This document shows positions 8,762 to 22,732 of a DNA stretch of 24,100 nucleotides, piece by piece. The translations under genes and the position numbers were made by a program. The stretch comes from a virus. The notes under the pieces were generated by a model that saw only the letters and a program-made list of their open reading frames with translations, ran no database searches and had not been told where the DNA came from. The first letter of the stretch is position 1. Each line of letters starts with the position of its first letter. Location: positions 1-24,100 of IMG/VR virus record IMGVR_UViG_3300025127_000276; one strand, 5' to 3'.

Positions 8762-8790
8762 TTGACAACTAGGTTATGTGTGCCTATGTT
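8762..8790 (+). promoter_or_regulatory. Strong sigma70-type promoter of the replication operon
   Basis: A perfect TTGACA (8762-8767) is separated by 17 bp from TATGTT (8785-8790). The spacer contains TAGGTTATGTGTGCCTAT (8770-8787), which includes a TAGG-N9-CCTA dyad and recurs at other promoters in this window. Transcription would start near 8797, giving a leader of about 38 bases before the ATG at 8835. It is in the gap between DUF1064 and the operon carrying the ATPase, helicase, nuclease and primase. Confidence 0.7.
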
Positions 8791-8834
8791 ACAGGTATCT
8801 AGTGTCTATTTTGTATAAAGAGAAAGGAATAATT

Positions 8835-9269
8835 ATGGATTTAGATTTTTTACATATGCCTTTGCAGGATTTGTTCAAGTATCGTGAGGACTTGAAGAAC
8901 CAAATCCAAGCGTTAAAGGATAAACAAGCTCATCTTAATGATGATCTTGCAATTAGGTTTGGCAACACTGCAAGAAATAAACTTGCAGATGATGGCAAAG
9001 ATTATGGCTCTGTAACATTACATGAGCATGGCTATAAAGTTAAAGTTAGCTTGAGGCAAAAAGTTACTTGGGATCAAGAGGGTCTTGCACAGTCTTTGAT
9101 GGATATGAATCAAGATGATGCAAGGCACTATGCTAAGATTACTTATGGCATTGATGAGCGTAAGTATAACAATGCACCTCCTGCTATCAAAGCAAAACTA
9201 CAAGAACACAGAACTGTAGAACTTACTGGTACATCTGTGGATATTACGGAGGATAATAATGACTCTTAA
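8835..9269 (+). CDS. Recombination-module protein with coiled coil, unknown function
   Basis: 144 residues from ATG 8835, preceded by AAAGGA at a 6-base spacing; an in-frame GTG at 8778 lies inside the promoter and is rejected. The first 45 residues form an amphipathic, Leu/Lys/Gln-rich coiled-coil (LFKYREDLKNQIQALKDKQA). The middle contains KVKVSLRQKVTWDQEGLAQS, and the C-terminal part ARHYAKITYGIDERKYNNAP ends in an acidic tail. I recall proteins with this KVTWDQ...Y.I.E.KY..AP pattern directly upstream of Sak4-like ATPases in phages. It could be an accessory factor for the recombinase, but no biochemical role is known to me. It overlaps the next gene by 11 bases. Confidence 0.6.
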   Translation: MDLDFLHMPLQDLFKYREDLKNQIQALKDKQAHLNDDLAIRFGNTARNKLADDGKDYGSVTLHEHGYKVKVSLRQKVTWDQEGLAQSLMDMNQDDARHYAKITYGIDERKYNNAPPAIKAKLQEHRTVELTGTSVDITEDNNDS

Positions 9270-10128
9270 GATTATTACTGCTGATGAAAGATTATCAGAA
9301 AAGCGTGGTCATAAGGTTGTGGTTTGTGGTCAAAGTGGTGTGGGTAAGACAACTCTTGCTCGCACTCTTGACCCTGATACTACTTTGTTTATGGACTTAG
9401 AGGCTGGTGATGCGGCTATTGAGAGATGGCCTATTGACGTTATTAGACCAAAAACTTGGGAAGAGTGCAGAGATTTTGCATGTTTCTTAGGTGGTCCTAA
9501 TCCAGCTTTAACACCAGAGCAACCATATTCAGTTGTGGAATATGAAAGAGTTTCACAAATGTATGGCGACTCAATTGAAATGATGAAGAAGTATGACTCA
9601 ATCTTTGTAGATAGTATTACTGTGGCAGGTAGATTGTGCTTTCAATATTGTTTAGGACACCCTGATAATAAATCAGATAGGACTGGCAAGATTGATACAA
9701 GAGCTGTTTATGGTATGCAAGGTCGTGAGATGATGTCATGGCTAACACATCTACAACATATTAGGTCTAAGAATGTTGTCTTTGTTGGCATCTTAGATGA
9801 AAAGGTTGATGACTATGGTAGAACTTTGTATGAGTTACAAATTGAAGGTTCTAAGACTGGTCGTGAGTTACCTGGTATTGTAGATGAAGTTATTACTATG
9901 GCAGTAATGCCAAGTGAAGAACATGGGCCATATAGAGCCTTTGTATGTCAAACACTTAACCAATGGGGTTATCCAGCAAAAGATAGATCTGGTCAATTAG
10001 AAGTAATTGAAGAACCACATCTTGGTAAGCTATTGGCAAAAATCAGTGGTAGGTCAAGCGGAGAAAGGGATTTAAACTTCGTTGACCCTAATGCAATCAA
10101 ATCTAGCGAAAAAGGAGATACTAAATGA
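9259..10128 (+). CDS. Sak4-like RecA-fold ATPase (phage recombinase)
   Basis: 289 residues. The Walker A motif GQSGVGKTT is at residues 24-32 and a Walker B-like SIFVDSIT at about 114-121; the segment TTLFMDLEAGDAAIERWPID is typical of the phage AAA_24/Sak4 group. Such proteins are RecA-core ATPases that work with a partner ssDNA-binding protein in single-strand annealing or strand exchange during phage replication. The next gene encodes exactly such a partner candidate (DUF669), with a 4-base ATGA overlap, which strengthens the assignment. The start has GGAGG about 8 bases upstream. The C-terminal 40 residues are charged and probably flexible. The family call is solid; the exact activity (annealing versus strand invasion versus replicative helper) is not visible. 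Confidence 0.85.
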   Translation: MTLKIITADERLSEKRGHKVVVCGQSGVGKTTLARTLDPDTTLFMDLEAGDAAIERWPIDVIRPKTWEECRDFACFLGGPNPALTPEQPYSVVEYERVSQMYGDSIEMMKKYDSIFVDSITVAGRLCFQYCLGHPDNKSDRTGKIDTRAVYGMQGREMMSWLTHLQHIRSKNVVFVGILDEKVDDYGRTLYELQIEGSKTGRELPGIVDEVITMAVMPSEEHGPYRAFVCQTLNQWGYPAKDRSGQLEVIEEPHLGKLLAKISGRSSGERDLNFVDPNAIKSSEKGDTK

Positions 10129-10718
10129 TTGATTTTAATGAAGTCCCAACTGGTGGTGGCGGCGGGGGAGATTTTGAATTAATCCCTGCTGGTACTGTAG
10201 CTCGTGTTATTTTAACTATGAAAAGGGGTTCTGAAGTTATCCCTGATTACTCAACACAACCTATGTTCAAGCAAGGTCAAACTGGTACTAAGTGGCTTGA
10301 GTGTGAGTTTACTGTTGTTGGTGGCAAGTATGACAAACGTAAGTTTTGGCAAAATATCATGGTTGATGGTGGCAAGATTAATCCTGAAAGTGGTATGCCT
10401 TGGTGTAAAGAAATTGGCATCAGAACTTTTAGAGATATTATTAATAGCACTTTTGGTCTTGATCCAAACGACACCTCACCAGAGGCAGCCATGAAAAGAA
10501 AGGTCAATGACTTAAACGTACTTGATGGTGCAGAGTTTTGTGTCAAGGTAGCCGTTGAAAAAGGTAATAATGGTTATGCAGATAAGAATAAGATGATGGT
10601 TGCTCTTGCTGTGAATAGCAATGAGTATATTGGTTCTGCACAAGCACCTCAAACTAACAACCAACAACCTCAACAACCCAATGGTAATAGCCCATTACCA
10701 CCTTGGGCAAAGAAGTAG
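10125..10718 (+). CDS. DUF669 ssDNA-binding-like protein
   Basis: 197 residues, starting in an ATGA overlap with the ATPase gene. The N-terminus has a glycine run (PTGGGGGGDFELIPAGT), followed by a beta-rich core with TKWLECEFTVVGGKYDKRKF and WQNIMVDGG, characteristic of DUF669. Proteins of this type pair with Sak4-like ATPases and are thought to serve as the phage single-strand binding protein with an OB-like core. Residues 175-197 are a Gln/Asn/Pro-rich tail (NNQQPQQPNGNSPLPPWAKK), which looks like the flexible tail of SSB but lacks the acidic DDDIPF tip; an unlinked acidic tip is found on the small protein at 13009-13257. The stop is followed by a 99-base structured gap before the helicase. 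Confidence 0.8.
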   Translation: MIDFNEVPTGGGGGGDFELIPAGTVARVILTMKRGSEVIPDYSTQPMFKQGQTGTKWLECEFTVVGGKYDKRKFWQNIMVDGGKINPESGMPWCKEIGIRTFRDIINSTFGLDPNDTSPEAAMKRKVNDLNVLDGAEFCVKVAVEKGNNGYADKNKMMVALAVNSNEYIGSAQAPQTNNQQPQQPNGNSPLPPWAKK

Positions 10719-10817
10719 GTTTCTAGGTTTCTAGCGGCAGGACTACTTTCTCGTCTGCTAGAGTCGGTTTGGGTAGCACCGATGCCGCAAAGCTACCCAT
10801 TTAACTAGGAAACAAAC
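10719..10817 (+). ncRNA. Structured intergenic element with pseudoknot potential
   Basis: This 99-base gap is more G+C rich than its surroundings and carries three perfect helices. GCGGCA (10734-10739) pairs with TGCCGC (10783-10788). TCGGT (10764-10768) pairs with ACCGA (10778-10782). GGGTAGC (10771-10777), inside the loop of the second helix, pairs with GCTACCC (10792-10798). The second and third helices form a classical H-type pseudoknot, with no base between strands 10777 and 10778, and the 3' strands of the first two helices are contiguous. AGGAA of the helicase ribosome binding site follows within 10 bases. It could be a cis-regulatory leader of the helicase gene or a processed RNA. I do not recognise it as any riboswitch I can recall. 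There is no T-run, so it is not a simple terminator. Confidence 0.5.
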
Positions 10818-12500
10818 ATGATTTTAAGACCATACCAAGAAGTAGCAGTAGAGGATGCCTCAACTGCACTAGACAAACATAAAAACACAATTGTAGTTGC
10901 ACCAACTGGTGCAGGCAAAACAATTATGTTATCTGCCCTAGTTGGCAAGAGATACAAAGTAGGTAACAAGGTTCTTATTCTGCAACACAGAGATGAGTTA
11001 GTAAGACAGAATAGAACTAAGTTTTCTAAGGTTAATCCTAACATTACGACTAGCATTGTTGATGGGTCAGAAAAAGACTGGTCTGGCAATACGATATTTA
11101 GCATGGTGCAAACGCTATCAAGAGAGAACAATCTAAACAACATCAATCACTTTGACTTAGTTGTGGTTGATGAAAGTCATCATGCAGTAGCAGATACATA
11201 TATGCGTATCATTGACAAAGTTAAACAAGCAAATGAATCAGTAGAGATTGTTGGCTTTACTGCAACACCTAATCGTGGAGACAGAAAAGGTCTTAAAAAA
11301 GTATTTACCAACTGCTCACATCAAATTGAGATTAACACATTAATTAGAGAAGGCTTCTTAGTACCACCTAAAACATACGTTGTTGATGTAGGTGTGCAGA
11401 AAGACTTACAAAATGTTCGCAAGACAGTAATTGATTTTGATATGTCAGAAGTTGAAAAAATTATGAACAAACGTGCCATTAATGAGAAGATTGTTCAAGA
11501 ATGGCAAGACAAGTCTGGTGAAAGAAAGACAGTTGTTTTTTGCAGCACAATCACTCATGCACAAGACGTTTGCGATGAGTTTAGGAAGAAAGCCATAAGA
11601 GCAGAAATTGTAACTGGTGATACACCAAGCGAACAACGTAAAGAAATATTACATGATTTAGAACATGGTGATGTCCAGGTTGTGGTCAATGTTGCGGTAT
11701 TAACAGAAGGCTTTGATGCACCACCAATTAGTTGCATTGTTCTTACAAGACCATGTTCATATAAGTCTACGATGGTGCAGATGATTGGTCGTGGTCTGCG
11801 AACAATCAGTCAAGAAGAATATCCTGGAGTAATCAAGAAAGATTGTATCGTTTTAGATTTTGGCACAAGCGTTCTTACACATGGATCACTTGATGAAGGT
11901 GTTGATCTTGATGGTGCTCAAGCAAACGTAAATGGAGCAACACCACTTAAAAACTGCCCAGAGTGTCAATCTGAAATCCCATTATCATCAAGAGAATGTC
12001 CTATCTGTGGACATGAGTTTGGTACTCAAGACAAAGAAGTTCTTGATAACTTTACTATGACAGAAGTTGATCTTATTGATAGATCACCATTTAGATGGCT
12101 TGACTTGTTTGAAAACAATAGATGTATGATGGCAAGTGGTTTTAATGGATTTAGTCTTGTCGCACATTTAGATGACCTATCTGTGGCTCTTGTAAAGCGT
12201 AATAAAGGGCGTTTAAGGGTTGTTAGCGTTGGAACTAAGGAACAAGCAGTTGCGTCTGCTGATGACTTTCTAAGAGGCATAGAAGATGGTGATGGTTCAA
12301 AGAAAGGTAAGAGATGGTTAAATCAAGGTGTGAGTGTAAAGCAGAAAGACGCATTAGCACAATTAGGTCAGTTTGTTAGACCTATGGATTTTAGTTGGAA
12401 CAAATACAAAGCAGCATGTTGGTTAAATTATTTGTGGAATAAAAAAGAAATTGATGCAAAGATTTTAAGCTATTACGAAGGAGATGATAATGCAACGTAG
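10818..12500 (+). CDS. SF2 DNA/RNA helicase with C-terminal zinc ribbon
   Basis: 560 residues. Superfamily 2 motifs occur in order: Walker A APTGAGKT (28-35), Walker B/motif II DESH (118-121), motif III-like FTATP (147-151), motif V region LTEGFDAPP (295-303) and motif VI QMIGRGLRT (321-329). The N-terminus LRPYQEVAVEDA is the typical Q-motif-like entry of the Res/UvrB-like group. A C-x2-C...C-x2-C zinc ribbon is formed by Cys380, Cys383, Cys394 and Cys397. The C-terminal 150 residues are family-specific, with an acidic end. The protein would unwind or remodel DNA at forks or recombination intermediates, consistent with its neighbours. AGGAA lies about 8 bases before the ATG. It overlaps the following gene by 11 bases. 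Confidence 0.9.
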   Translation: MILRPYQEVAVEDASTALDKHKNTIVVAPTGAGKTIMLSALVGKRYKVGNKVLILQHRDELVRQNRTKFSKVNPNITTSIVDGSEKDWSGNTIFSMVQTLSRENNLNNINHFDLVVVDESHHAVADTYMRIIDKVKQANESVEIVGFTATPNRGDRKGLKKVFTNCSHQIEINTLIREGFLVPPKTYVVDVGVQKDLQNVRKTVIDFDMSEVEKIMNKRAINEKIVQEWQDKSGERKTVVFCSTITHAQDVCDEFRKKAIRAEIVTGDTPSEQRKEILHDLEHGDVQVVVNVAVLTEGFDAPPISCIVLTRPCSYKSTMVQMIGRGLRTISQEEYPGVIKKDCIVLDFGTSVLTHGSLDEGVDLDGAQANVNGATPLKNCPECQSEIPLSSRECPICGHEFGTQDKEVLDNFTMTEVDLIDRSPFRWLDLFENNRCMMASGFNGFSLVAHLDDLSVALVKRNKGRLRVVSVGTKEQAVASADDFLRGIEDGDGSKKGKRWLNQGVSVKQKDALAQLGQFVRPMDFSWNKYKAACWLNYLWNKKEIDAKILSYYEGDDNAT

Positions 12501-12777
12501 TGAAGCATTGAAAAAAGTAGACTTAATTATTAATGGACCAAGAGCTAAATCTCATGGAGATGCTACAGAAACACATACTTATATAGCTCAAATATGGAAT
12601 ATATTATTAAGAAAAAAGTTAAAAGAACCACTTGATATACATGATGTATATAGAGCTATGATTGGCATTAAACAAATTAGAAACAGTCAGAATCCAAAAG
12701 TCGATGACAACATGATTGATATTATTGGATATGCGGCATTAGCAATAGAGGCAAAAGATGGCAAGAATGGTAATTGA
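12490..12777 (+). CDS. DUF6378-type phage protein
   Basis: 95 residues from ATG 12490, chosen over ATG 12484 because AAGGAG (12478-12483) abuts the first but is 6 bases from the second. The pattern AKSHGDATETHTYIAQIWNI...PLDIHDVYRAMIGIKQIRNS...NMIDIIGYAALAIE matches the DUF6378 group of phage proteins (HGD...N...IA.IW...; DN..DI.GYA.L). These are small helical proteins with conserved His/Asp/Glu positions reminiscent of all-alpha NTP-pyrophosphohydrolase-like proteins, but no activity is established as far as I know. It sits between the helicase and small replication-module genes, overlapping both neighbours by about 11-20 bases. Confidence 0.65.
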   Translation: MQRSEALKKVDLIINGPRAKSHGDATETHTYIAQIWNILLRKKLKEPLDIHDVYRAMIGIKQIRNSQNPKVDDNMIDIIGYAALAIEAKDGKNGN

Positions 12778-13042
12778 ATACACTATCCAAGAGGAAAATA
12801 AAGTTGGTATTGAAAACTTTAAAGATGGCAAGATGTTTGTTCAGTTTAGTTTTGATGATCACCCAGACGTTACTGCACATAAGATGCAAGATGCGTTGAT
12901 TAATGTGATGGATAAAAATAAAGATTACGTTTTAAGTATAGTCTTCATTGCTAAATTTGAAGGCGTAACAATGGCAGAGGGTGCTCTGTATAAAGAAGGA
13001 GAAGGTAGATGGATAAACCCACAATCGGAGACGATTCACTAA
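12758..13042 (+). CDS. Small replication-module protein, unknown
   Basis: 94 residues; ATG 12758 is preceded by AGAGG at a 6-base spacing and overlaps the preceding gene by 20 bases. The sequence alternates beta-like and helical segments (MVIEYTIQEENKVGIENFK, MFVQFSFDDHPDVTAHKMQD, DYVLSIVFIAKFEGVTMAEG) with an acidic character. I do not recognise a family. Its place between the helicase and nuclease genes and its tight overlap with both neighbours suggest co-expression with the replication machinery. Confidence 0.5.
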   Translation: MARMVIEYTIQEENKVGIENFKDGKMFVQFSFDDHPDVTAHKMQDALINVMDKNKDYVLSIVFIAKFEGVTMAEGALYKEGEGRWINPQSETIH

Positions 13043-13991: not shown

Positions 13992-16163
13992 ATGAACATT
14001 ATAAAGTTTGGCAATAGTAAAAGAACTATGGATGCAAAGGAATTAGTTGAACTAATTAGTGAGAGAGTTCCTGCAAATGTTCAGATTAATTTATTAAAAG
14101 ACACTTATCCACAAGGGGTTGTTAGAGGAGATCAATTCACTATTGGTTCACTTGGTGGTGAGGCAGGCAAGTCTTTGAAAATAGATATTAATCCCAAATC
14201 CCCATACTTTATGAAAGGTCAAGACTTTAATGGTTCTGATGGTGTTGGAGGTATTGTTAAGATATTGATGGAGGGCAGAAATATGAAGTTGCCTGAAGTT
14301 AAAGAGTTCTTTGATGATTATTTGAGTGATGACGCACCAAGACCAGTTGAAAAGATTAGTTCTATTGTTGATCCAAACATACAACAAATAAATTTAAACA
14401 CACCATACGATAGCGAACATAAATATCTTAATGCACAAGGTGAGTTATTATGTCTCGTTCGTAGGTATAACACTAAAGATAATGATGGTAATCCAGTTCT
14501 TGATGGACATGGTAAGCCGAAGAAAGAATTTAGACAATTTACTGGTGGCAGTAATTATCCAAAGATGCCAGACGTTAGACCTTTGTACAACATACCGAAC
14601 ATTGTGGCATCAGAAAAGATAATATGGGTAGAGGGAGAGAAATGTGCAGATGCACTTAATGGGCTTGGTTATACTGCTACATGCACTATGGGTGGTGCGG
14701 GTATGCTTTCAAAGAAATCTGCAAATCTATTTGACTTTTCTCCGTTGCATGAGAAAGAACTGATAATATGGCCAGACAATGATAATGCAGGTCGTAAATT
14801 AGCAGAACTTGTCCAAGAACTTGCATTAAACGCTGGTGTTAAATCAGTTACTACACTTACACCACCAAGAGGTAAGCCAGAAAGATGGGATGTTGTTGAT
14901 GCAGTTGCAGAGCAATTTAATATAAATGAGTTTTTAAACACCAATGTTAAGCAAGTAAAAAAGAACATTAATCTTCTTGACGATAGTTTGTTAATAAACA
15001 GATTTGTTGGCGATGCACCAGTACAGAAGTTTCTAATAGCGAACACATTGCCATTAGCTGTGCCAATTATATTCTCTGCTGCAGGTGATAGTGGTAAAGG
15101 TATGATGACTCTTGATCTAGCCATGAAAGTATCAAGTGGTCAACCAATGTCAGAATCATTTGGTGGCACAATAAGTGAGTTTGGTAATTCAATTATATTT
15201 ACTGCTGAAGATGATGAGGCAGAGATGCACAGAAGAATAGAAAGACTTGATATAGACAACCAAAGATCAAGCTACGAGCATGAACTGCGAATCGTGAGTT
15301 TGCCTAATGTTGGTGGTGTATTTCCCATACTACAAGAAACACATGATGGCTACAGAACAAGTGATGAATTTGATAAACTTTACGAACAAATACTGCAAAT
15401 GAAAGATTTAAAACTTATAGTTTTTGATCCATTAGCATCTTTTGTTCACGCAGATGTTAATGCAGATCCAGCGGCGGGTGCAGCACTAACTGGATTACTT
15501 GCACAGATAGCTACAGAAACTGGTGCGTCAGTTATTATGTGTCATCACATGACAAAGATTAAAGAAGACACAGTTGTTAGTACGCCTGAACAAGCAAGAA
15601 ATATGATTAGAGGTACGTCAGCATTGGTTGATGGTGTTCGTTGTGCCTTTGCATTATGGCAAGTAGATGAGGCAACTGGCAGAAGACGTTGCCAAGATTT
15701 AGGCATAGATTATCAAAGAAATAAATGCTTTGATGGTGCAGTAGTAAAATCTAATGGTCCAGCAAACAGAAACATTAGGCATTTCATTAGAGATGAGTTT
15801 AGTGGATTGTTGTTAGATAGAAGTGATGATATTTCAAGATTACATACTGGCTCTAATAAAGAGATAAAAAAGAGTGCATTGTTTAATTGGATTGCAGATT
15901 GTGAAAGAGAGGGTAGGGCTATGACACAACAGTCTGGTGCAGACGCTATCTTACAACGTATGTCTGCTGATACAGATGCACCAAACGTGCTTAATAATTG
16001 CACACAACGTATGATTGATGGTCTTGTTAGAGAATTGATACAAGAGGGTAGAATCGCCAAGTATTCATTTAGCACAAGTGGTGGTCGTAAGTGGCTTGGC
16101 ACAATAGATGGCGATATGAGTAGAGGTGAATACGAGGCCACTACTGCGAGGGATAATGTATAA
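13992..16163 (+). CDS. Primase-helicase: Toprim plus RecA-like (RepA/AAA_25) ATPase
   Basis: 723 residues from ATG 13992, which lies 6 bases after GGGGG (13981-13985); earlier in-frame ATGs (13890, 13986) have poorer spacing or overlap the nuclease gene. The N-terminal part (about 1-130) has no zinc finger I can see. A Toprim domain follows, with the catalytic Glu in WVEGEKCADAL (Glu215) and PDNDNAG (Asp262, Asp264). A RecA-like ATPase domain begins near residue 345 with SAAGDSGKGMMTLDLA (atypical Walker A, Gly in place of Ser/Thr after Lys369), acidic EDDEAEMHRR, Walker B LIVFDPLASF (475-484), and MCHHMTK (516-522). The C-terminal 130 residues look like a winged-helix extension. It would prime and unwind DNA at the phage origin using a host polymerase. 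It overlaps the next gene by 8 bases. Confidence 0.85.
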   Translation: MNIIKFGNSKRTMDAKELVELISERVPANVQINLLKDTYPQGVVRGDQFTIGSLGGEAGKSLKIDINPKSPYFMKGQDFNGSDGVGGIVKILMEGRNMKLPEVKEFFDDYLSDDAPRPVEKISSIVDPNIQQINLNTPYDSEHKYLNAQGELLCLVRRYNTKDNDGNPVLDGHGKPKKEFRQFTGGSNYPKMPDVRPLYNIPNIVASEKIIWVEGEKCADALNGLGYTATCTMGGAGMLSKKSANLFDFSPLHEKELIIWPDNDNAGRKLAELVQELALNAGVKSVTTLTPPRGKPERWDVVDAVAEQFNINEFLNTNVKQVKKNINLLDDSLLINRFVGDAPVQKFLIANTLPLAVPIIFSAAGDSGKGMMTLDLAMKVSSGQPMSESFGGTISEFGNSIIFTAEDDEAEMHRRIERLDIDNQRSSYEHELRIVSLPNVGGVFPILQETHDGYRTSDEFDKLYEQILQMKDLKLIVFDPLASFVHADVNADPAAGAALTGLLAQIATETGASVIMCHHMTKIKEDTVVSTPEQARNMIRGTSALVDGVRCAFALWQVDEATGRRRCQDLGIDYQRNKCFDGAVVKSNGPANRNIRHFIRDEFSGLLLDRSDDISRLHTGSNKEIKKSALFNWIADCEREGRAMTQQSGADAILQRMSADTDAPNVLNNCTQRMIDGLVRELIQEGRIAKYSFSTSGGRKWLGTIDGDMSRGEYEATTARDNV

Positions 16164-16971
16164 ACTTCCAGACAATAATTGTGTAATTAGCTTTAGTGGT
16201 GGCAGAACTAGTGGCTTTATGTTGAAACAAATCATTGATAACAACAATGGTCTACCAGATAACGCAGTGGTTTGTTTTGCGAACACTGGCAGAGAGATGC
16301 CACAAACACTTGAGTTTATTAATGATTGTTCGCTCAACTGGGGAATGAAAATTGTCTGGTTAGAATATGATTTGAATGATGAGAACAAGCATATATTTAA
16401 AGTTGTAGACTATGAAACTGCCAGTAAGAGAGGCGAACCATTTGATAAATTAATAAATAAGCATCAGATGTTACCTAATCCATTAGCAAGATTCTGTACT
16501 GGTAGTTTGAAAAGAGACACTATAAGTAAATATTTAAGAAGTCTTGGTTGGAAGAGATGGCACAACATCATGGGCATAAGGTCGGATGAGAAGCATAGAT
16601 GCAAAGATGGTTTTCAAAATGGCTTCTATCCACACTATCCAATGGTTGAAGCTAATCACAGTTTGCGTGATGTAGATCACTTTTGGAGCGAACAATCTTT
16701 TAAACTTAACTTACCAGTTGTTAAAGGTAAAACCATCAAAGGTAATTGTGATTTGTGTTTTCTTAAATCTGAATCACAACTTGCATCTATGGTCAGAGAT
16801 CACCCAGACTTAGCTCAATGGTGGATCGATGCCGAACAAAGACTTAACAAAAGGTTTGAACGTAAGAGAAGCATGAAAGAGTTTGCTAAATTTGTTAATG
16901 CTCAACAAGATTGGATATTTAATAATGAGGCTTATCTTTGCCAACAAGATGGTGGGGAGTGTACAGGTTGA
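16156..16971 (+). CDS. PAPS reductase/DndC-like PP-loop protein
   Basis: 271 residues from ATG 16156 (GAGG 5-6 bases upstream); an in-frame ATG at 16126 lies further inside the primase gene. The PP-loop SFSGGRTSGFM (SGG-x-x-S at 14-19) marks an adenine-nucleotide alpha hydrolase that would adenylate or bind ATP/PAPS. CFANTGREMPQTLEFIND and PLARFCTGSLKRDTISKYL are family-typical. Cysteines at 114, 198, 201, 262 and 269 (FCTG, CDLC, LCQQDGGECTG) could hold a metal or Fe-S centre. Phage members are usually labelled PAPS reductase, but the Cys layout resembles nucleic-acid thiolation enzymes at least as much as assimilatory reductases. Its stop overlaps the TTG start of the cytosine methyltransferase, so a linked role in nucleic-acid modification is possible but unproven. 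Confidence 0.75.
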   Translation: MYKLPDNNCVISFSGGRTSGFMLKQIIDNNNGLPDNAVVCFANTGREMPQTLEFINDCSLNWGMKIVWLEYDLNDENKHIFKVVDYETASKRGEPFDKLINKHQMLPNPLARFCTGSLKRDTISKYLRSLGWKRWHNIMGIRSDEKHRCKDGFQNGFYPHYPMVEANHSLRDVDHFWSEQSFKLNLPVVKGKTIKGNCDLCFLKSESQLASMVRDHPDLAQWWIDAEQRLNKRFERKRSMKEFAKFVNAQQDWIFNNEAYLCQQDGGECTG

Positions 16972-20511: not shown

Positions 20512-20837
20512 TGTTGGTAGTCATAGAATCGCCCTATAAGGGCAAAGTTAAACAAAATGTAGCTTATGCACAAAAGTGCATGAGCGATTCTCTTTTGCGA
20601 GGTGAATGTCCATTTGCCTCGCATTTACTTTATACACAAGTGTTAGATGATACAGTTCCTGAATTAAGAAGTATGGGAATGTCAAGAGCATTTGAATGGT
20701 ATCGCCACGCAGATCTCATGGCAGTTTACATAGATAAAGGAATATCAAATGGCATGAAAATGGGCATGGAAGTAGCGGAAAAGCTCGGAATAGAAATAGT
20801 TTATAGGACATTAGATGGAAATAATAATAGAAGGTAG
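20511..20837 (+). CDS. DUF7768/DUF4406-like nucleoside-deoxyribosyltransferase-fold protein
   Basis: 108 residues from ATG 20511, which overlaps the previous TGA (TGATG); an in-frame TTG at 20493 is rejected. The patterns VVIESPYKGKVKQNVAYAQK, CMSDSLLRGECPFASHLLYT, QVLDD..PE...MGMS.AFEW and DLMAVYIDKGISNGMKMGME are typical of a phage family with the nucleoside 2-deoxyribosyltransferase-like fold (IESPY...N..YA..C..D.L.RGE.P.ASHL.YTQ...D.GIS.GM..G). The family may act on nucleotides or nucleosides, but substrate and activity are not visible from sequence. Its neighbour, the adenine/cytosine methyltransferase, starts 23 bases before its end. Confidence 0.65.
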   Translation: MLVVIESPYKGKVKQNVAYAQKCMSDSLLRGECPFASHLLYTQVLDDTVPELRSMGMSRAFEWYRHADLMAVYIDKGISNGMKMGMEVAEKLGIEIVYRTLDGNNNRR

Positions 20838-22209
20838 CACAGTTTACAATGGCGACTGCTTAGAAGTCATGGAGAAAATAGATAAGTGTTCGGTTGATAG
20901 CGTGGTAACTGATCCGCCGTATCACCTAACATCTATTGTTCAGAGGTTCGGTAAAGAAGATTCAGCACCAGCTCAGTTCGGTACAGATGGAGCATTTGCC
21001 AGAGCGTCAAAAGGTTTTATGGGTAAAGAGTGGGATGGTGGCGACATAGCTTTCCAAGCGAACACATGGCGTAAATGTTATGAGTTGTTGAAGCCTGGAG
21101 GTCATTTGATAGCGTTTAGTGGATCACGAACATACCATAGAATGGCAGTTGCCATAGAAGACGCTGGATTTGAAATTAGAGATCAATGTATTTGGTTGTA
21201 TGGTAGTGGGTTTCCTAAAAGCCACAATATAGGCAAAGAAGTTGATAAGAAAATGGGTAATCAGCGTGAAGTTGTTGAAACGAACAATAGAATAGCTACT
21301 AGCTTGGGTAATGGTCTTAACATGGATGGTGGTATAGCTAATAAAGATTACAAATATACGCAAGGCAATTCAGAATGGGAAGGTTGGGGTACTGCGTTGA
21401 AACCTGCACATGAACCTATGGTGTTAGCAAGAAAGCCTTTGTCGGAGAAGTCGGTGGCAGACAACGTAATGAAGCATGGAACTGGTGCGATAAATATTGA
21501 TGAGTGTCGGATACAAGGCGAGGTCAAGCACCCAAACACAATGCCAGACTTCCGTGATCAAGGCGAACAAAGTAAGGCTGCAATCGGTGTTGATAAGCTA
21601 TCATTTGGTCAAACATCTAACGCAAAGCGTAAAAAAGTTGTTCGTAAGGCTCGGACAGCAGATGGCGTGTGGACTGATGATAATAGTGGCATGAAGTCGG
21701 AGGGTTCGGAGTTTGCAGATGCAGATCCAAGAGGGCGTTGGCCGAGCAATATTATGCACGATGGCAGCGAACAAGTGCAGCAAATCTTTCCAACAACGAG
21801 CAGCACGGAGGTCAGCAGACAGCGAACACACAAGGGGATTTGGACTGCTGGTGAGCTTGCTGATACCGAACAATTCATGCCAGCTTATGGGGATCATGGC
21901 AACGCTTCTCGGTATTTCTACTGTGCAAAGACATCAAAAGATGAGCGTAAGTCAGGACTGGGAGGTGAAATTAAAGCGAACACTCACCCAACAGTTAAAC
22001 CAGTTGAGCTGATGCGATACCTTGTTCGCTTGGTTACGCCCAAAGGAGGACTGGTGCTCGATCCGTTTATGGGTAGTGGATCAACTGGCATGGGTGCAAG
22101 AGAAGAAGATTTTAGATTCATTGGCATAGAAAAAGAAGAAGAATACTACGAAATCGCCAAGGCAAGGATAAAAAACGTAAAACCCCAGTTAAAATTGTTT
22201 GACATATAG
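20815..22209 (+). CDS. DNA N6-adenine/N4-cytosine methyltransferase, beta-type order
   Basis: 464 residues. The catalytic motif IV VTDPPYHLT (DPPY at 33-36) comes first, and the S-adenosylmethionine site LDPFMGSGSTGMGA (about 415-428) is at the C-terminus after THPTVKPVELMRYLVRL; this IV-then-I order defines the beta class. Between them lie GGHLIAFSGSRTYHRMAVAI, WGTALKPAHEPMVLARKPL, GRWPSNIMHDGS and SRYFYCAKTS, the large family insert of phage enzymes that probably reads the target. It methylates an exocyclic amino group of adenine or cytosine; DPPY allows N6-adenine and does not exclude N4-cytosine. No restriction enzyme is beside it. The last bases contain the -35 box of the following promoter. 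Confidence 0.9.
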   Translation: MEIIIEGSTVYNGDCLEVMEKIDKCSVDSVVTDPPYHLTSIVQRFGKEDSAPAQFGTDGAFARASKGFMGKEWDGGDIAFQANTWRKCYELLKPGGHLIAFSGSRTYHRMAVAIEDAGFEIRDQCIWLYGSGFPKSHNIGKEVDKKMGNQREVVETNNRIATSLGNGLNMDGGIANKDYKYTQGNSEWEGWGTALKPAHEPMVLARKPLSEKSVADNVMKHGTGAINIDECRIQGEVKHPNTMPDFRDQGEQSKAAIGVDKLSFGQTSNAKRKKVVRKARTADGVWTDDNSGMKSEGSEFADADPRGRWPSNIMHDGSEQVQQIFPTTSSTEVSRQRTHKGIWTAGELADTEQFMPAYGDHGNASRYFYCAKTSKDERKSGLGGEIKANTHPTVKPVELMRYLVRLVTPKGGLVLDPFMGSGSTGMGAREEDFRFIGIEKEEEYYEIAKARIKNVKPQLKLFDI

Positions 22210-22577: not shown

Positions 22578-22732
22578 TGGAAAACTTAGTAAAAGTTAAA
22601 GTCTTTACTAAAAAAGATTTAGAGAAAGTCAGTAAGTTAATTGACGATTTGTATTTTGATTACGATAGAATGAGTACAAGTGGTCAAGAAACTCTTGATA
22701 AAATCTCAAGTACCTTAGAGGAGTTATCATAA
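22577..22732 (+). CDS. 51-residue coiled-coil-like protein
   Basis: The protein begins MENLVKVKVFTKKDLEKVSK and ends SSTLEELS. It starts at an ATG sharing a base with the previous TAA and ends at a TAA sharing a base with the next ATG (TAATG at both ends), leaving no gap, so the reading is well supported despite its size. It is acidic and helical, with Leu/Ile/Val heptad-like spacing in residues 14-51. GGGG lies about 8 bases upstream of the start. Function unknown. Confidence 0.6.
   Translation: MENLVKVKVFTKKDLEKVSKLIDDLYFDYDRMSTSGQETLDKISSTLEELS

Follow-up and report, generated by a model that had tools for sequence, protein, structure and literature searches.

A pseudoknot close to a gene for a single-stranded-DNA-binding protein (SSB) has been described before. 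In phage T4, a gene 32 pseudoknot serves as the nucleation site from which gp32 spreads across the ribosome-binding site; this pseudoknot also overlaps the homing endonuclease ORF segG (PMC535899). The gene 32 operator of T4 and RB69 is a single pseudoknot of about 28 nt, located 5' of the SSB gene and followed by UUAAA repeats. The element described here is likewise a pseudoknot beside an SSB gene in a phage replication region that can overlap another ORF, but it is about 70 nt long, has five helices, lies 3' of the SSB gene and does not require such repeats. Since in that operator class the pseudoknot belongs to the leader 5' of the SSB gene, we did not assign the element to it. The STAXI motif, a pseudoknot present in two or three repeats with frequent UUCG loops, is also often found near single-stranded-DNA-binding protein genes, and the L17 downstream element is a structured RNA tied to the preceding gene (PMC2864571). 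The likeness to STAXI ends with a pseudoknot near such genes, as tandem repeats are required there and the present element occurs as a single copy per contig and has no Rfam match. Like the L17 element, it is tied to the gene before it, but the gene, the hosts and the fold differ, again with no Rfam match.

The element lies in a 24,100-nt stretch of viral DNA (IMG/VR record IMGVR_UViG_3300025127_000276, positions 1 to 24,100; hereafter the window). It lies within a 99-nt gap between an ssb-like gene and a helicase gene, the only noteworthy non-coding gap between the otherwise overlapping genes from 8778 to 13042. The predicted fold is a double pseudoknot in the sense mRNA, with the following features.

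10125..10718, plus strand: ssb-like gene, 197 aa, phrog_2300, with an OB-fold model; the gene that the element always follows
10719..10728, plus strand: spacer from the ssb stop to P1, GUUUCUAGGU; in the predicted MFE fold, able to pair with AACUAGGAAAC of the helicase Shine-Dalgarno region
10729..10799 (core 10730-10799), plus strand: whole RNA element, sense strand of the mRNA; descriptor score 75.4; 73.6 bits, E 9e-19 with covariance model R1, whose training set includes near-identical relatives
10730..10735, plus strand: P1 5' strand UCUAGC; pairs with 10757-10762, 95% of cells paired, double changes at 6/6 pairs
10736..10739, plus strand: bulge GGCA, the PK1 5' strand; pairs with UGCC at 10783-10786; combinations GGC/GCC, GGU/ACC and GAC/GUC among relatives
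10740..10743, plus strand: P1b 5' strand GGAC; pairs with 10753-10756, 94% paired, double changes at 3/4 pairs
10753..10756, plus strand: P1b 3' strand GUCU; covariation in alignment A2
10757..10762, plus strand: P1 3' strand GCUAGA; covariation in alignment A2
10764..10768, plus strand: P2 5' strand UCGGU; pairs with 10778-10782, 93% paired, double changes at 5/5 pairs
10770..10777, plus strand: P3 5' strand UGGGUAGC, inside the P2 loop; pairs with 10792-10799, double changes at 7/8 pairs
10778..10782, plus strand: P2 3' strand ACCGA; covariation in alignment A2
10783..10786, plus strand: PK1 3' strand UGCC; three-strand complementarity in 104/112 scored distinct elements
10789..10791, plus strand: A-rich junction AAA from PK1 to P3, NAA-like in nearly all copies
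10792..10799, plus strand: P3 3' strand GCUACCCA; covariation in alignment A2
10806..10817, plus strand: helicase Shine-Dalgarno region (TAGGAAACAAAC), from sequence
10818..12500, plus strand: helicase gene (ResIII/DEAD, zinc ribbon), the next gene here and in many but not all relatives

The complete fold thus comprises five helices at 10729-10799: a hairpin (P1/P1b) whose 5' bulge GGCA pairs with UGCC to form PK1, followed by an H-type pseudoknot (P2/P3). A sequence-only reading had counted three helices, at 10734-10739/10783-10788 (6 bp), 10764-10768/10778-10782 (5 bp) and 10771-10777/10792-10798 (7 bp). All three are present in the window. As it had stated, the second and third make up a gapless H-type pseudoknot, and 8 nt separate the end of the third from the AGGA at 10807; P1 and P1b (10740-10743/10753-10756) were absent from it. 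Its 6-bp helix is PK1 together with 10734-10735 paired to 10787-10788, and G10734-C10735 are common to this helix and to P1. The GC at 10787-10788, which extends the PK1 3' strand, repeats the P1 3' dinucleotide at 10757-10758. P3 is GC-rich and very stable, lies at the 3' edge of the element and reaches 8 bp when U10770-A10799 is counted. Pairing of the spacer at 10719-10728 with the Shine-Dalgarno region is not consistently conserved within the window's clade. Directly 3' of the ssb stop, the window holds a tandem UUUCUAG repeat at 10719-10735 (GUUUCUAGGUUUCUAGC); in the predicted fold, its first copy is able to base-pair with the Shine-Dalgarno region of the helicase.

Comparison with relatives gave decisive support for this predicted fold. 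In an MAFFT alignment of 49 distinct sequences (A2, with rows partly misaligned), 89.5% of cells were paired; column shuffling left 73.8% paired, and sliding the partners by 1-3 columns no more than 46%. Changes on both sides were observed in 22/27 pairs, amounting to 188 such cells against 60. All five helices, including the three of the sequence-only reading, are kept across A2 by compensatory change. P2 and P3 are almost wholly replaced between lineages, P2 occurring as UCGGU/ACCGA, CACGG/CCGUG or CCAAGG/CCUUGG and P3 as GGGUAGC/GCUACCC, GGGUAGU/ACUACCC or GGGGGG/CCCCCC; the PK1 variants are those given above. In a gapless clade of 22 sequences (alignment A5), 98.7% of cells were paired, against at most 55% when slid. 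To our eyes the family is of interest in having three crossing helices supported by covariation outside Rfam.

The same alignments indicate which strand is functional, because a G-U pair on one DNA strand is a C-A mismatch on the other. A5 contained 31 G-U cells and 0 A-C cells, which argues that the functional molecule is the sense RNA; A2, in which rows are partly misaligned, contained 30 G-U and 10 A-C cells. It has been proposed for STAXI that such structures could act in DNA (PMC2864571), and a DNA-level structure, for instance a single-strand origin, might merely lie near the replication genes, among which the element does sit. The G-U bias in both alignments fits sense RNA only, however, and the window shows no GC-skew turn, so that this explanation is hardly credible. 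Since both compensatory change and tolerance of G-U without A-C were found, we conclude that the predicted structure is a cis-acting, sense-strand mRNA element, in agreement with the original proposal of a structured RNA.

The fold is also unlikely to arise by chance. With a descriptor of the whole fold, the window scored 75.4, whereas 3,000 dinucleotide-shuffled versions of the 99-nt gap gave 8 scores of 50 or more (best 57.8) and none of the shuffled relatives (480 kb) reached 55. Folded without pseudoknots, the intergenic RNA was more stable than shuffles (z -3.1). Elsewhere in the window, an apparent intergenic gap at 22578-22731 scored 51.3, which is chance level; this gap seems to contain a small ORF from about 22577 that falls below the 60-aa listing limit.

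No Rfam 15 family reached its gathering cut-off, either in the window or across 112 kb from 19 diverse relatives, and no known riboswitch model matched. A literature search found no named element like this one, although it may have been described earlier elsewhere. The family is absent from Rfam and previously uncatalogued. HDV-like ribozymes share the nested double-pseudoknot strand order P1-PK1-P1b-P1'-P2-P2'-PK1' and require an unpaired C before PK1'. This order, together with a weak match to RAGATH-5 (RF02685), raises the idea of a self-cleaving ribozyme. The RAGATH-5 likeness is local (GGG..GCACCG...AAAGC..CCC in the window clade) and scored 17.9 bits at 10770-10799 against a cut-off of 50; at E<=1 it was seen in 1/6 records, none above the cut-off, and the five other lineages with the same fold gave no match. 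HDV, twister and hammerhead models did not match the window or the 19 relatives. Moreover, the element lacks the J4/2 catalytic C and carries the additional P3 pseudoknot. The junction before PK1' is only 0-1 nt, and the nearest candidate, the C preceding the A-rich junction, reads U throughout the winged-helix clade, in which cleavage would also cut an ORF. Membership of the HDV-like and RAGATH-5 classes was therefore rejected, and self-cleavage seems very improbable. A frameshift or readthrough pseudoknot was likewise set aside, as the spacer to the ssb stop is not fixed (0 to 57 nt) and frames vary; in L083 the ssb frame reaches a TGA within the element.

Searches anchored on structure, helicase and SSB (a helicase query, two RNA patterns and an SSB query) yielded at least 113 distinct copies in viral contigs. 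Two helicase-anchored sets, blind to the RNA and restricted to loci with roughly 160 nt or more of upstream sequence, contained a parsed element in 139/144 loci, or 142/144 when three recognised by eye are included (L271-L273, with G-U in PK1). The two loci without it (L075 and L277) begin inside or near an interposed gene. The RNA pattern GGGGGG...GCCG..AACCCCCC places no constraint on P1 or on genes; among the matches listed, all parsed cases fell in the SSB-helicase region except a chance match on an unrelated contig (L313). A first, degenerate pattern matched one unrelated contig (L200). Long records carry one copy per contig. A helicase query of genome contigs detected no prophage relatives, and blastn of the window region and of L240 against phage records gave no matches. 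The helicases and SSBs detected in isolated phages were all distant ones (<=43% and about 30%, respectively), and inspection by eye revealed no element 3' of the DUF669 gene of Roseobacter phage CRP-902 or 5' of the helicase in the Manatee Spring contig MW202473. These comparisons indicate that the predicted structured RNA family is real and widespread in uncultured marine phage contigs.

The gene upstream of the element was suggested at the outset to encode an ssDNA-binding protein, and modelling bears this out. AlphaFold predicted an OB-like barrel for the phrog_2300 product (mean pLDDT 82), for which PrgE, encoded on plasmid pCF10, was the best solved Foldseek match (E 2.8e-5), ahead of yeast RPA (E 0.012). 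On the basis of this fold comparison and of its place beside a Sak4-like gene, the modelled product does look like an SSB. Relatives of this protein at about 30% identity in Wolbachia WO, Acidithiobacillus AcaML1 and Megaira phages (H41-H52) are annotated as hypothetical only, and could perhaps be named with the help of the OB-fold result. With one chance match excepted, all parsed elements that have sufficient upstream sequence lie 0-57 nt 3' of an ssb stop; in nearly all lineages the distance from the stop to P1 is 0-18 nt, and in a few it is 57 nt. The ssb start overlaps the preceding gene by 4 nt, with no such element 5' of ssb. A sister clade without the element keeps ssb, with an SSB about 60% identical to the query and a strong AGGAGG directly at the ssb stop. 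This amounts to one change on the SSB tree, nested among carriers, and hence to a single loss of the element, which makes the clade a ready negative control.

In contrast with the constancy of ssb, the gene that follows the element varies. In other lineages it encodes a zinc-finger-like protein, a PDDEXK_14 nuclease, an HNH-type protein (named from sequence only) or a winged-helix (HTH) protein. In the winged-helix clade, the start of the ORF lies 10 nt upstream of the ssb stop, and the frame stays open across the whole element in 24/24 distinct copies examined; the element lies about 30 nt or more past the next gene's start codon and is read as MGALETLWQFISGKPSEVAKSSKGGAGAVKPP. Lineage L435 reads this RNA in a different frame, MNWLKKILAAALHVVVSPSLGG. 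The use of two frames in two lineages argues that the RNA and not the peptide is conserved. The element persists even in lineages where it has become part of the next coding sequence, and it is rare for a single RNA fold to be non-coding in some lineages and coding in two frames in others. The sequence-only reading took the element to be a translation-control or ligand-sensing leader for the helicase. A leader role for the helicase is not supported, since the element stays with the ssb stop while its follower changes, and a helicase-specific leader or riboswitch is not indicated. Several unrelated small genes (L226:2078-2497, L011:1718-2011, L247 and L274:1388-1702) fill the slot between the element and the helicase start in different phages; they encode PDDEXK_14 nuclease, zinc-finger-like, HNH-like and winged-helix proteins, and the slot has the appearance of a gene-insertion hot spot. 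In L399, L409, L410, L412 and L450, the winged-helix ORF has a 39-nt in-frame extension just 5' of the element, which in L450 repeats part of the sequence (GKPSD... LSGKPSEV) and looks like a partial duplication.

The element probably sets the output of the neighbouring replication proteins. Its constant position directly behind ssb, combined with a variable follower, suggests that it concerns the ssb cistron or divides the operon. We favour, with a probability of roughly one in three, a boundary element behind ssb that acts as a roadblock to 3'-to-5' mRNA decay and stabilises the ssb message. Exonucleases arriving from downstream would halt at the P3/P2/PK1 knot, the ssb message would outlive the helicase part of the mRNA, and much SSB but less of the proteins encoded downstream would result. 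We infer both the block and the underlying stoichiometry, in which SSB would be needed in bulk and the helicase would not. Intercistronic stem-loops, such as the puf or mal operon hairpins, stabilise the upstream part of a message and provide a parallel in kind. A position inside the next ORF also fits an effect on upstream mRNA and not a start-site leader. Several observations speak against a roadblock, however. A plain hairpin could block exonucleases, which leaves five helices, a strongly conserved GGC bulge and three-strand complementarity unexplained; ribosomes on the winged-helix gene would unwind the element; UCUAGC-loop hairpins in many helicase leaders hint at translational control; and one clade lost the element yet kept ssb. 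If the element does set the amount of SSB relative to other replication proteins, it would offer a compact model of replication-operon balance in DNA phages.

The association with ssb might instead reflect feedback, in which SSB would bind the pseudoknot, spread on the mRNA and repress the next gene or its own once free SSB accumulates. The element accompanies an SSB gene in every checkable case, one chance match apart, the modelled SSB has an OB fold, and T4 gp32 provides a precedent both for pseudoknot nucleation and for an overlapping ORF, segG (PMC535899). Feedback is thus a close, if somewhat less likely, rival of the roadblock. Against it, the T4 pseudoknot precedes gene 32, whereas here the pseudoknot follows ssb and none precedes it, and relatives without the RNA keep an SSB of about 60% identity.

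The complementarity among three strands requires separate consideration. In 104/112 scored copies, the dinucleotide just 5' of the GGC bulge can pair with P1' and equally with the dinucleotide after PK1'; its changes (AC, AG, GT) are matched at both partners, as in AC/GT/GT and AG/CT/CT. The pattern suggests a conserved alternative in which either P1 or PK1 is extended, with few independent dinucleotide events because the sequences are related. In many lineages a small hairpin precedes the next start; its loop contains UCUAG(C/A), and the Shine-Dalgarno sequence is part of its 3' strand or adjoins it. The stem of the hairpin differs between lineages, and the loop could pair with the P1' sequence GCUAGA. 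For a UCUAGC copy complementary to P1', 31/67 distinct leaders beat 95% of shuffled tails, a result that is suggestive only, as the sequences are related. The window's own clade has no downstream UCUAGC copy.

Translational coupling could account for these features. RNA unfolding is an accepted model of such coupling (PMC12548453). Ribosomes at the ssb stop would open P1, and the freed GCUAGA would pair with the loop UCUAGCA and open the Shine-Dalgarno hairpin, thereby linking translation of the next gene to that of ssb. The start of P1 0-18 nt past the stop in nearly all lineages, the UCUAGC copy within a hairpin of varying stem and the concerted changes at three places are all consistent with this proposal. 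It too is a close rival of the roadblock, a little less likely than feedback. Against it, the window clade lacks the downstream copy, the next start codon of the winged-helix clade precedes the element and the hairpin statistics come from related sequences. In a bolder reading, the element may represent a new class of phage RNA that uses three-strand exchange, the same dinucleotide entering P1 or PK1; ribosomes ending at ssb, or SSB itself, would choose the state and so set replication-gene output.

Stabilisation of the ssb message is also to be weighed against an effect on transcription. Nascent put RNAs of phage HK022 bring about processive antitermination, and the element could similarly modify RNA polymerase for the rest of the replication operon. 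Such an activity would be in cis, on the sense strand and independent of translation, would tolerate a position within an ORF, and would suit the window, in which the replication-region genes are all on the same strand. It is improbable, however, for an element in mid-operon with no promoter proximity, around which intrinsic terminators are not in excess. Further along the window, a PAPS-reductase-like gene (16126-16971, a weak Pfam match) and a DNA methylase gene (20815-22209, N6_N4_Mtase) occur in the same region and possibly point to DNA modification.
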